34,562 nt of DNA from an uncultured Lachnospiraceae bacterium (lineage in GTDB: Bacteria; Bacillota; Clostridia; Lachnospirales; Lachnospiraceae). This document shows positions 8,327 through 13,812 of this stretch, piece after piece. The position numbers and the translations under genes are program-made. The stretch is from positions 1 through 34,562 of the forward strand of contig CAJOGB010000008.1 in assembly GCA_905233835.1 (NCBI GenBank). The letters are read 5' to 3'. The notes under the pieces were generated by a model, which saw only the letters and a program-made list of their open reading frames with translations, was not told the DNA's origin and did not search any database. Positions within the stretch are counted from its first letter, which is position 1. Every line of letters begins with the position of its first letter.

Positions 8327-10975
8327 CTATAAATATTTTTCCTCGAATTCCCCTCTGGTTAACGGTTTGTCAAACAAATAGCCCTGTACCATATCCACCT
8401 TCATATCGGCGATGGCACTTTGCTGTGACTCCGATTCTACTCCCTCTACAACGACTTCCATATCAATGGAATCCGCCAGTGATGTAACGGTCTTTATAAA
8501 CGCATGAGAGAACTCATCCGATTCCATTCCGTCCACAAAACATTTATCAATCTTAATGATATCCACCGGAAGTGTTTTTAATCTTCCGAGAGATGAATAT
8601 CCGGTTCCGAAATCATCCAAGGCCAAATGAACTCCCAAGTCCCTTAAGCCCTCTAAAACCGTCTGCATTTTATCCCCGTCGCTGGCGGCCAATGACTCCG
8701 TTACTTCCAATGTAAGATTCTGTGCAAAAAGTCCGGTATGCGCCAACACTTCCCGCACGGTTTCTATAATATTTCCCTGCATCAACTGTACAACGGAAAG
8801 ATTTACGTTTACCGTATACTCCGGATGTCCGAAGTCATTCCAATACTTACAGCGCGAGCAAGCTTCCTCCAAGATATACTTTCCGATAGGAACAATCAGT
8901 CCCAAATACTCTGCCAACGGAATAAACTCATTTGGCATTACCAAGCCGAAGTCCTTGGAATTCCAACGAACCAGCGCCTCGGCTCCGCAGCATGGATGCT
9001 TTGGTTTTGTAGCATCCACTAACGGCTGAAAATATACCTCAAACTCTCCGAAGCCGTCATCGATGGCATTTCGCATGGCGCGTTCCATATCCAGTCTGTG
9101 GATGGTCTCATCCGAAGCATTCTTCGAATAGTATTCTATCTGGTTCTTTCCTTTTTGCTTTGCGGAATACATGGCGATGTCCGCACGTTTAAGCAAGGTC
9201 TCCACTTTAGTACCGTCCTTCGGGAAAGAGACCACTCCCATACATGCGGTACAATAATATTCGCTGGAACCTAAGTTCCAAAGCTCACCGAATCTTCTTT
9301 GCAATGTGGAAATCGTCTTTTCCACAAAGTCATGGGAATTCGCCGGTAATAGAATTGCAAACTCGTCACCGCCCAAACGATAACAGTTTCCCACACCTCT
9401 GGTAATTGTCTTTAATGCAACCGCGGTTTTCTGTAAGAATTCATCTCCCTCCGCATGGCCAAGTCCGTCGTTTACGTCCTTAAAGTCATCTAAGTCGATA
9501 TAGATAAAAGTTCCCTGTTCACCGGAGCGAACCGCATCACGAATATAATCCCGTAAATCTTCTTCAAAGCGAAGGCGATTGTAAAGGCCGGTAAGATAAT
9601 CCGTTACCGCGCGCTCTTCAATCTGCTTCTGATAGTTTTTCACTTCCGTTACATCGTAAATGGTGCTTAAGCGAACTTCTCTTCCATCCACCCAGTGAAT
9701 CTTTGAAAAGGATATGGTATACCACTTCTTTGTCTGTTCGGTACAAAACTCCTTAAATTCTTCTAAGGCTTCATCGCTTCCCGTAAGAATTACGTTTTCA
9801 AACTTCTGTCGATCTCTTAAATCCTCAAAAATAGTCTCATAGGTTTCGTTTGTAAATAAGATGTTCTGGCTCGCATGATCGCATACGCAAATACCACATC
9901 CCGCATTTTCCAAAATGGCATCCAAGGCCGCATAAGAACTCGCAAGGGAGTTCTTTGTGACTCTCTTTACAAGTATGGTCTGCAATACCATCTTAATATC
10001 ATTTAAAAGCTTCACATCATCAACAGACCACTTTTTTGGTGTTCCGCTAATGGTAAAACAAACATACATACCAAGCTTATCATTTACAAACAAAGGCAAA
10101 AACACACCTGCCGTAATATCGTAGCTTAAGAAATAAGATTTAAAGTTCTCCGGCAAAATCGCATCTGTGGAAATGGTATAAGGACGTCCCGTAAAAAACG
10201 GAATGCATTCTTTATCCACAGAGAAGAACTTACTCATCATATAATTTCCGTCCACACCGGCCCACTCGCAGATCATATCCACTGTGGTTTCATCCGGATT
10301 CAAACGGAGTAAATATGCATTGGTCAGTTCCATAAAAGAACCGATGTCTCCCAACACATCCTCGGTAATCTTTGCAAAGTCATTGTCCGATTCCATTCGT
10401 CTTAAAATGGAAGTCATCACTTCGTTTCGACGAAGCATACGCTTCATGTGATCTCCGGACAATTCTTTTTCTTCCAGCCGTGTCTCTAATTTATCCTCTC
10501 TGGAGCGAGTGGTAAAATACTGGCTCATTAAGATTTCCATTAAAGCAACGCTGTTTGTATAGTCGTTAAACGTGGTCATTCTGGCATTTTCAAATACCAC
10601 GTCTTCTTCCGCCAAAAGTTCTTTTGCAATGCAGGGAACCAGCATCACACCGATTAAGGAACCCTCGTCATCACGGATTGCCACTCCGCTTAAAAAGATA
10701 TAGGGCTCTTTTGTGTCAAAAGAAATAATGTTTTCAATACTGTTGTTCCCAAAGGATGCCACTAAGGTCTGCATCATCTCCTGGGTAATAAAGTTTCCGA
10801 AAAACTTCTTCGCTTCCTCACTGCCGGAGAAACGCGTAATCGAATGAAAACTCGTATCAAAGCAAGCGGCGTATACATGTGCACTCTCGCAATACGCATC
10901 CTGCATCTTCTGAAACGCATTGATATCAATATCCAATTGTACTTTGTCTGTGTCCCTAAGATTGGTCAATGACAT
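8327..10975 (-). CDS. GGDEF-EAL cyclic-di-GMP protein with N-terminal sensory (GAF/PAS-like) regions
   Basis: 882 aa; RLGGDEF, AEALVRW, DDFGTGYSSLGRLKTLPVDIIKID all canonical. Confidence 0.93.
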   Translation of the reverse strand: MSLTNLRDTDKVQLDIDINAFQKMQDAYCESAHVYAACFDTSFHSITRFSGSEEAKKFFGNFITQEMMQTLVASFGNNSIENIISFDTKEPYIFLSGVAIRDDEGSLIGVMLVPCIAKELLAEEDVVFENARMTTFNDYTNSVALMEILMSQYFTTRSREDKLETRLEEKELSGDHMKRMLRRNEVMTSILRRMESDNDFAKITEDVLGDIGSFMELTNAYLLRLNPDETTVDMICEWAGVDGNYMMSKFFSVDKECIPFFTGRPYTISTDAILPENFKSYFLSYDITAGVFLPLFVNDKLGMYVCFTISGTPKKWSVDDVKLLNDIKMVLQTILVKRVTKNSLASSYAALDAILENAGCGICVCDHASQNILFTNETYETIFEDLRDRQKFENVILTGSDEALEEFKEFCTEQTKKWYTISFSKIHWVDGREVRLSTIYDVTEVKNYQKQIEERAVTDYLTGLYNRLRFEEDLRDYIRDAVRSGEQGTFIYIDLDDFKDVNDGLGHAEGDEFLQKTAVALKTITRGVGNCYRLGGDEFAILLPANSHDFVEKTISTLQRRFGELWNLGSSEYYCTACMGVVSFPKDGTKVETLLKRADIAMYSAKQKGKNQIEYYSKNASDETIHRLDMERAMRNAIDDGFGEFEVYFQPLVDATKPKHPCCGAEALVRWNSKDFGLVMPNEFIPLAEYLGLIVPIGKYILEEACSRCKYWNDFGHPEYTVNVNLSVVQLMQGNIIETVREVLAHTGLFAQNLTLEVTESLAASDGDKMQTVLEGLRDLGVHLALDDFGTGYSSLGRLKTLPVDIIKIDKCFVDGMESDEFSHAFIKTVTSLADSIDMEVVVEGVESESQQSAIADMKVDMVQGYLFDKPLTRGEFEEKYL

Positions 10976-10995: not shown

Positions 10996-12490
10996 CTATT
11001 TTTTCTTAATGATATAAAGGCTTCGATATCCGCCAAAAGGAATCTCTTCCATCAGATATATGCTCCGGGTTCCTCTGATTTGCTGCTTCATCAAGCCCTT
11101 TTCGTTGGTCAGAATCATCCACACGCTTCCTCTTTTTGAAACAGAAAGAGAAGTCTTAATAAAGGATTTGATAAACTCGATGCGATGTTGTTTATCCTTT
11201 TGAAACAAATCCGGAAACTCGGTAATAATCTCATCAAATACCTCTTTATCCGTATACTCAAAATAATTCTTCCGCAAAAGTTCCGCGTCAACCCCTGCAA
11301 TTTCTATGGATTTTGTTCCTTCCACGATGGCATCATGATAGGTGTCCAACCCCACTGCTTTTCTGATAGGGGCTTTTTTTGCCCGCTCAATCAAAAGGGT
11401 TGCGCTACCGCAAAATGGGTCTAACACGTAAGCATCTTTTTTCAAATACGGATAACACATCTCCGTCATACAGGAAGCCTTCTGGGGCGCCATGGACGTA
11501 GATGTTTTGTTTGTCCGATATAAAAAGCGGTCGGATTTAAACTCCCGAAACCAAAGATACATACCAAAGGTTTCATCTTTTCTTTGTGCAAAAAGAACTT
11601 CGATCCGGTGCATTTGTAAGGCGCTCCGGATAGAGTTCCTCCAGAGTTTTTGAAAATGCATTTGCAACTTTATGCTTTTCTTCTTTGTCCTCTTTTTGAA
11701 GCATCACATTCACTCTAAAAAAGATGCATCCTTCTCCGGACAGATAGTTGGAAAGCATCTGCATAAGAAGAGAATTTTGAATCACTTCCCTACGATCTTC
11801 AAAGGTAAACAAAGAGTCTTTTTTTATCGGAACAATGAAGTATATTTTATCATAAATACGGCTGGAAAGTATAGGGGATATATTCTCACTCATCACTCGG
11901 ATTCCGAAGGGAGTTTTCCTGATATCCTCTGCATTTAAACCATTTCTGATAAGTTCCTTCATCAAGTATTTTTCATGCCCTTTTACCAGGGTGAGAAGAA
12001 GAGGAACCTTTTTGGATATTCCGTTAAATGTATGTATTTGATTTGCATCGGTTAAACAAAGCAACCTTCTTTGTTCTTCCGAGATATGCTTATTTTCTTC
12101 CTCCGTAAAGGAATGGGTTTGGATGTAGCGTTTACGTTCCTTTAAACCGGACATCATCTCATCGGAAAGTTCGACATGAAGATCCTCCAATGCCTTTAAA
12201 TACGATGCACGTACATAAAGCACCGGTTCTTTATCATAGGTTTCATATAAGATCTCTGCAATTTCTGCTTTTTGTTTTTCCTCCCAAGGAAGTATTCCGA
12301 ATAGTAACGCCGCATTTTTTCTGGTTTTTGCGTCCTCATCCGTGATGGCCGCATATAATTCTTTTTGTTGTAAACAAAGGTCTTTCGCAAAGCCCGCGTC
12401 CTCTTTCGCGCGCTTGCGATACCCGCTGATTCTTTCTCGAATTGTCTCTCCCATAAATTTTCCTTTGTGTAATATGTACAAAAACCGCAT
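10996..12490 (-). pseudogene. Class I SAM-dependent RNA methyltransferase (TRM11/RlmL-like), split by an apparent frameshift
   Basis: 305-aa ORF (11573..12490) and 223-aa ORF (10996..11667) overlap in different frames; the downstream part carries DPFCGSATLLIERA. The upstream reading is lost at ...LYPERLTNAP and resumes as IEVLFAQRKDETFGMYLWF. Confidence 0.75.
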
Positions 12491-12521
12491 GTCATTTTTG
12501 TCTATTTTGTCATTTTGCCGA

Positions 12522-12550
12522 TAGACTTAATGGACAAGTGGGAATATAAT
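12522..12550 (+). promoter_or_regulatory. Sigma-A-type promoter for candidate sRNA
   Basis: TAGACT (12522-12527), 17-nt spacer, TATAAT (12545-12550). Confidence 0.55.
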
Positions 12551-12556
12551 TGGAAA

Positions 12557-12649
12557 CGAATTAGAGATGTGAACCCCTCATATCTCATAAGTATTTCCCC
12601 TTTATATAACCCCCTTTAAAACAACCTACCGTTTAGGTTGTTTTTTTTT
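12557..12649 (+). ncRNA. Candidate C-rich small RNA
   Basis: Promoter upstream; 9-bp hairpin GAGATGTGA-ACCCC-TCATATCTC (12564-12586); TTTCCCCTTT (12594-12603); AACCCCCTTT (12608-12617); terminator hairpin AACAACCTA-CCGTT-TAGGTTGTT plus T9; no significant ORF. Confidence 0.55.
12620..12649 (+). terminator. Strong intrinsic terminator on plus strand
   Basis: AACAACCTA CCGTT TAGGTTGTT followed by a T9 tract. Confidence 0.85.
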
Positions 12650-12679
12650 GCGGTTTTTTCTAAGTCAATTGTTAATAAA

Positions 12680-12720
12680 AAAGGAAGGTGAATCCCTTTT
12701 TTACCGGATTCATCTTCCTT
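12680..12720 (-). terminator. Intrinsic terminator of ilvE
   Basis: AAGGAAG(g)TGAATCC ... GGATTCA(t)CTTCCTT inverted repeat with T-rich tract on minus strand. Confidence 0.8.
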
Positions 12721-12732
12721 AGTGCGTTAAAA

Positions 12733-13812
12733 CTATTCCACAGGGACAATCCAATTATATTTATCTTCGATTCTGCCCCACTGGATGCCGGTAAGTGTAT
12801 CATAGAGTTTCTGTGTAAGCTCGCCGGTTTTCATATCATTGATAACGACCACGTCGTCTTTATAGCGAAGTTCTCCTACCGGAGAGATAACCGCAGCCGT
12901 ACCGGTTCCGAATACCTCTTCGAGTCTTCCGTCATGACCCGCTTTCATCAAATCATCAACGGCTAACTTTGTCTCATTTACCTTGTAACCCCAGTCACGA
13001 AGCAAATGAATCATAGAATCTCTGGTTACACCCGGAAGCACGGTTCCTTCAATGGGAGCGGTATAGATTTCACCATCGATTTTGAACATGATGTTCATGG
13101 TGCCCACTTCCTCTACATACTTTCTTTCTTCACCGTCAAGCCAAAGAACCTGGGTATAGCCAAGCTTTTCAGCCTTTACCTGACCGAGAATAGAACCTGC
13201 GTAGTTTCCGCCACACTTTGTAAAGCCGGTTCCGCCCTTAACGGCACGTACCAACTCATCTTCCACTAAAATCTTTACCGGATCTAAGCCTGTCGGATAG
13301 TATGCTCCTACCGGGCAGCAAATGATGATAAATTTATAAGAAGAAGCCATATGTACACCAAGGGCTGCTTCTGTTGCAAACATATACGGGCGAATATAAA
13401 GCGACGTATCCTTTGCGTGCGGTACCCAGTCTTCTTCGCATTTCACGATAGCCTTTACCGCATCCACAAACATATCCACCGGGAACTCCGGCATGCAAAG
13501 ACGTGCGTTGGAATTGATCATACGCTTCGCATTCATTTCCGGTCTGAAAAGCTGAATCTTTCCTTCTGCGGTACGATATGCCTTTAAACCTTCGAATGTT
13601 TCCTGCGCATAGTGAAGTGTTACGCAAGCCGGATCCATTGGAATCGGTGCATTGGGCTCAATTCTGGCATCGTGCCATCCCTGATCTTTGTCCCAGTCCA
13701 TCACAAACATATAGTCTGTCATGTACTTTCCGAATCCGAGTTTTGATTCGTCCTGCGGCTTTTCTTTCAAAACGTCGCGTTTGATAAATTTGATTTCCAT
13801 GTTAGCCTCCAT
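12733..13812 (-). CDS. ilvE: Branched-chain amino acid aminotransferase
   Basis: HYAQETFEGLKAYR, FTKCGGNYAGSI, EEVGTMNIMF, GTAAVISPVG; 359 aa. Confidence 0.95.
   Translation of the reverse strand: MEANMEIKFIKRDVLKEKPQDESKLGFGKYMTDYMFVMDWDKDQGWHDARIEPNAPIPMDPACVTLHYAQETFEGLKAYRTAEGKIQLFRPEMNAKRMINSNARLCMPEFPVDMFVDAVKAIVKCEEDWVPHAKDTSLYIRPYMFATEAALGVHMASSYKFIIICCPVGAYYPTGLDPVKILVEDELVRAVKGGTGFTKCGGNYAGSILGQVKAEKLGYTQVLWLDGEERKYVEEVGTMNIMFKIDGEIYTAPIEGTVLPGVTRDSMIHLLRDWGYKVNETKLAVDDLMKAGHDGRLEEVFGTGTAAVISPVGELRYKDDVVVINDMKTGELTQKLYDTLTGIQWGRIEDKYNWIVPVE

Follow-up and report, generated by a model that had tools for sequence, protein, structure and literature searches.

The window analysed here is a 34,562-nt stretch of DNA from an uncultured Lachnospiraceae bacterium, to which all coordinates refer. 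On its plus strand lies a unit that is almost certainly a genuine small RNA (sRNA) gene. A -35-like TAGACT (12522-12527), a 17-nt spacer and a -10 TATAAT (12545-12550) form the putative promoter (12522-12550), read from the sequence and recovered by a scan. The predicted RNA of about 93 nt occupies 12557-12649, its start placed from the -10 and its end at the U run. According to the folds it begins with a 5' hairpin of 9 bp, including one G-U (12564-12586), in which GAGATGTGA (12564-12572) pairs with TCATATCTC (12578-12586) and displays the loop ACCCC (12573-12577). Next come two single-stranded segments, TTTCCCCTTT (C tract 2, 12594-12603, the tract proper being UUUCCCCUUU) and the nearly invariant AACCCCCTTT (C tract 3, 12608-12617, tract AACCCCCUUU). 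All three C tracts, counting the loop, are predicted to be unpaired with probabilities of 0.85-1.0, and for tract 2 the value is at least 0.98. The scan places an intrinsic terminator at 12618-12649, made of AAAACAACCUA, CCGUU, UAGGUUGUUUU and U9. Its stem (12618-12628 with 12634-12644) has 11 pairs including the A-U ends, by sequence reading and scan alike, and T9 lies at 12641-12649. The promoter, the 9-bp ACCCC hairpin, the two further C tracts and the U9 terminator that a first-pass annotation of this DNA had described are thus all in place, and we infer transcription of the unit from its promoter and terminator.

Conservation and covariation are the strongest evidence that this is more than a chance arrangement. 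In a structural alignment of 27 distinct sequences, which was fitted to the structure model and is biased toward it, 92.3% of cells are paired and 20 of the 21 base pairs in the two helices (5' hairpin and terminator) change on both sides; these helices are also seen when each sequence is folded alone. The covariation score is 0.629, as against 0.226 for shuffled and at most 0.144 for slid controls. In the 5' hairpin, whose C-rich loop is retained in relatives, 11 of 12 pairs show compensatory changes, and all nine terminator pairs have changed on both sides in relatives. The C-rich segments that the first-pass annotation had singled out are kept across genera while the hairpin covaries, and the structure it had drawn folds far better than shuffled sequence: 101 nt of the plus strand reach -26.7 kcal/mol, compared with -10.6 +/- 2.4 for shuffles (z -6.6, 0 of 200 as good), and 12556-12650 gives a z of -5.8. 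The covariance model R2, built with the window sequence included, scores the window sRNA at 66.9 bits.

The promoter match by itself is not above chance (3 found versus 4.4 expected in the scan). It is credible because the identical layout aligns across 27 homologous loci, where the -10 and an ATTG/ATAG-type -35 hold the same register. That the unit is instead a small protein gene, or a chance assembly of promoter-like and terminator-like sequence, is scarcely credible. Covariation and conservation across genera exclude chance assembly. Short frames of 16-21 codons do occur in some copies, but they are not shared between clades, and the window's genus and the others differ by about 8 nt in linker length; the small open reading frame (ORF) interpretation was rejected. 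An AU-rich mini-hairpin lies between C tracts 2 and 3 in most relatives and is absent from the window's genus.

About 30 loci carry homologues of the sRNA. They come from roughly 25 genomes of Lachnospiraceae, for the most part metagenome-assembled genomes (MAGs) from the rumen but also the cultured isolates XBD2001 and C10. Searching 195 relatives at the DNA level returned near-identical copies in G003 (one) and G004 (two) and partial matches, in linker and terminator, in G055 and G089. In the latter two genomes the stem sequence is wholly changed, yet a hairpin with a C-rich loop is kept. The two G004 copies lie on contigs with the same flanking ilvE and methylase genes, and likely represent two co-binned strains. 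A linker pattern (TTTCCCCTTT, a gap of 0-18, TATAACCCCC) was also searched in one genome per species across 85,462 species and gave 32 stretches. About 25 of these have the full layout of promoter, hairpin, linker and terminator, two of them cut by contig ends, and all are from Lachnospiraceae, again mostly rumen MAGs plus the two isolates. The remaining seven stretches were judged to be chance. Pattern matches dismissed in this way, for want of hairpin, promoter or terminator context, were L051, L061, L063, L064, L070, L074, L076 and G208/L042.

The covariance model found 11 carriers among 397 family genomes, in 9 of 334 genera and with one copy each, a count that is a lower bound as the fast filters missed the same-genus carrier G003. 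It added loci L085, L086 and L089 and the divergent relative L091. Copy number in the family scan is essentially one per genome. The RUG14892 contigs that carry L049 (contig 198) and L067 (contig 149) each break off within or next to the sRNA, where the sequence may be repeated in that genome or the contigs may overlap.

No Rfam family except tRNA scored above threshold in the window or the scanned relatives, and the earlier description of the unit as unannotated holds in that the gathering scan matched no sRNA family. Nor did the Rfam and literature searches turn up a described trans-acting or C-rich sRNA family from Lachnospiraceae. The sRNA is a new family of the same kind as the C-rich, Shine-Dalgarno (SD)-targeting sRNAs of Firmicutes (RoxS/RsaE, LhrC, csRNA) and not a member of those. 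It has the features of that functional class, an independent unit with exposed, conserved C motifs, presumably transcribed between its promoter and terminator. In working principle the nearest known systems are LhrC, the csRNAs and RoxS/RsaE. LhrC, whose SD-pairing function is proven, is laid out in much the same way (PMC4132741). In LhrC1-5 of Listeria monocytogenes the promoter is under LisRK control from the region upstream of -53 (PMC4132741), a further likeness. In contrast, LhrC has five copies in Listeria versus essentially one here, LhrC binds Hfq whereas the carriers have no detectable hfq, and no covariance-model match to LhrC was obtained up to E 10.

The csRNAs of Streptococcus (CiaRH regulon, RF02379) have two stem-loops with an unpaired SD-complementary region between them (PMC3091779), an arrangement that the folds recover here, and their promoter carries a direct repeat (PMC3091779), which we also list as a likeness. 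They belong to another taxon, and the CiaR box TTTAAG-N5-TTTAAG is absent from 12460-12550, where the motif is TTTTTGTnnATTTTGTC. RsaE/RoxS of Staphylococcus and Bacillus use multiple C-rich tracts to pair with G-rich 5' regions of mRNAs (PMC5419742). Here such tracts are present and predicted to be exposed, and a conserved target was not found; taxon and genomic context also differ. Both groups had been named as analogues in the first pass and neither was matched: RsaE/RoxS gave nothing in the gathering scan or up to E 10, and the csRNA model showed only a weak structural resemblance (22.6 bits, E 0.71, gathering threshold 57 bits).

Judged by its anatomy, the best mechanism for the sRNA is pairing of its C tracts with SD sequences, to which we give a probability of roughly 0.7. 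A dedicated sigma-A-type promoter, perhaps with activation via conserved upstream TTTTGT repeats, would drive an RNA that consists of the 5' hairpin with its C-rich loop, the linker with its two tracts, and the terminator. The C tracts may then pair, independently of Hfq, with the G-run SD regions (AAAGGGG / AAGGGGGUU) of selected mRNAs, which would block ribosome binding and turn the target genes off. Trans action, repression and the identities of target and regulator are all parts of the model that we infer. The anti-SD of 16S rRNA is CCUCC. The linker resembles it with U replaced by C, and should therefore favour G-run SDs. An Hfq family member was not detected in 12 carriers, while control genomes were positive, so any pairing would be Hfq-independent.

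Two further lines of evidence fit this mechanism. First, the stems are variable (majority identity 71%), while the single-stranded linker, UUUCCCCUUU...UAUAACCCCC, hardly varies (96%, a value inflated by the recruitment of most homologues through the exact linker pattern); columns 68-76 of alignment A6, within tract 2, are identical in every sequence, a figure inflated in the same way. Variable stems, a constant linker and unpaired C tracts are what one would predict of an RNA that works through its single-stranded C tracts. Second, the window's own genome contains a perfect 17-nt complement to sRNA positions 12587-12603 that covers the SD and start of a His/Ser-rich ORF of 188 codons (BLAST E 0.002), and a 14-nt complement to 12606-12619 over the SD of a phosphofructokinase-like gene. 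Counts of SD-like site patterns also exceed those of a reversed-pattern control; this is ordinary SD bias and was not counted as evidence.

Several results weigh against SD pairing, beginning with that inflated linker identity: some members found by BLAST or the covariance model (L085, L086, L089) vary slightly in the linker. Among the candidates tested, no target was conserved across carriers. The SD match of phosphofructokinase is present in the window's own genome (G000), weaker in XBD2001 and relatives, and absent from G003 and G004. A sugar-ABC binding protein has its match limited to G000 and G003. For the gene with the 17-nt complement (G000 contig 117), the only homologue, in G723, is preceded by an ordinary SD. 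Eight related carriers gave no convincing recurrent orthologous target; the only match to recur, a weak AAAAGG, lies ahead of a GH94-like gene and was seen in two species. The start regions of the sRNA's divergent neighbours, described below, show no consistent complementarity to it, so base-pairing control of that operon was also set aside. The first-pass annotation had proposed a trans-acting, SD-targeting regulator with three C-rich seeds. Of this, the sRNA gene stands as an independent unit equipped with promoter and terminator, as do the three C-rich segments as conserved, unpaired parts; the SD targeting comes down to single-genome candidates, none of those tested being conserved.

The failure to find a conserved SD target would suit a genuine, conserved sRNA that uses its C tracts in some other way: to sponge up a G-rich RNA, to act as a decoy for a protein (e.g. 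of the cold-shock or KH type), or to pair outside the SD, for instance at mRNA 5' ends as RoxS does on yflS. We regard this as unlikely, since the C tracts are placed in a loop and single strands exactly like those of SD-pairing RNAs and since antisense matches over SDs and starts do exist in the window's own genome.

Both genes flanking the sRNA are on the minus strand, as first annotated. Upstream and divergent is an ORF (11573-12490) for the N-terminal part of a UPF0020/RMKL-like methyltransferase, assigned from the ORFs and from PF01170 on a relative's protein. The window's methylase is frame-broken into ORFs of 305 and 223 aa, the remainder lying at 10996-11667 and the frames meeting at 11573-11667 on the minus strand, whereas relatives have intact proteins of 487-517 aa; the split reflects either a misassembly or a disrupted gene. 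The next gene of the divergent operon (8327-10975, minus strand) encodes a GGDEF-EAL protein of cyclic di-GMP (c-di-GMP) turnover (Pfam GGDEF 1.4e-41, EAL 9.3e-61). On the other side, the convergent downstream gene is the branched-chain aminotransferase ilvE (12733-13812, minus strand; PF01063). After ilvE, a strong hairpin followed by T-rich sequence (12680-12722, minus strand) was taken to be the terminator of that gene. With this terminator and that of the sRNA facing each other, the two units would be insulated.

At nearly every locus with a readable upstream side, the gene divergent to the sRNA is either a UPF0020-type methylase, with GGDEF-EAL next, or GGDEF-EAL itself; L067, L080 and L091 lack this arrangement in the available sequence. 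BLAST clustering and sequence reading, not a per-gene Pfam scan, underlie several of the neighbour names and the assignment of GGDEF-EAL beyond the window. The downstream gene varies between loci (ilvE, flavin reductase-like, tRNA synthetase, purD and others), and as the position of ilvE is not conserved in other genera, ilvE is not functionally tied to the sRNA. The constant position beside one operon might point to a cis-acting element, either a transcription attenuator or leader or a control device for the divergent methylase/GGDEF-EAL operon. We find this improbable. The gene beyond the terminator is not only variable but on the opposite strand in many loci, including the window, and a divergent RNA has no transcript in common with the operon, whose start regions, as already mentioned, lack consistent complementarity to it. 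Moreover, the invariant part is a C-rich linker and not an antiterminator alternative.

A conserved region upstream of the promoter (12471-12521, plus strand), defined by column conservation, has GTACAA (TGCACAA in most relatives) followed by TTTTTGT / TTTTGTC repeats. In 27 upstream regions aligned on the -10, the shared order is TGCACAA, TTTTTGTnnATTTTGTC, an ATTG/ATAG -35 and TATAAT/TATACT, with some rows deviating. The TGCACAA / TTTTGT block, which lies within the divergent intergenic region shared with the neighbouring operon, may be a UP element or the binding site of a regulator. Interpreting the repeats as a Spo0A box was rejected, as their spacing is 9 bp and the half-sites are imperfect.

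The refined covariance model also gives weaker C-rich, terminator-bearing candidates, namely L223, L221 (C10), L222 (G723), L213 (G022), L220 (G003) and L214 (G001), which suggests several C-rich RNAs per genome. L223, in the window's own genome (G000 contig 47, 3259-3355, plus strand), has a TATATT box, a hairpin loop containing ACCCUCCC, then UACUCUCCCCUUUUU and a terminator. L220 (G003 contig 77, 7179-7295, minus strand) and L214 (G001 contig 360, 3586-3702, plus strand) have a 27-codon frame with an SD-like site, then UAUAACCCC...UAUAACCCCCCUUUU and a terminator, and lie upstream of a convergent trpA-like gene; they are possibly dual-function or 3' untranslated region C-rich RNAs. A divergent version with the loop ACCC, UAUAACCCC and UAUACUCCCC, and a strong terminator is found at L091 (G623) and L213, which suggests a wider C-rich superfamily.

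It is conceivable, though on balance doubtful, that the window sRNA is the best-conserved of a wider set of Hfq-independent, C-rich RNAs in Lachnospiraceae, and that its fixed position opposite GGDEF-EAL reflects a common regulator through which c-di-GMP turnover would be coupled to control, at the SD, of genes such as those for sugar catabolism. The sRNA itself is a solid and useful finding, and in principle an unsurprising one. Its covariance model could become a new Rfam family. With covariation-grade support, a defined structure, the cultured hosts XBD2001 and C10 and apparently no Hfq, it lends itself to testing whether clostridia of the gut and rumen regulate genes by SD pairing without Hfq.
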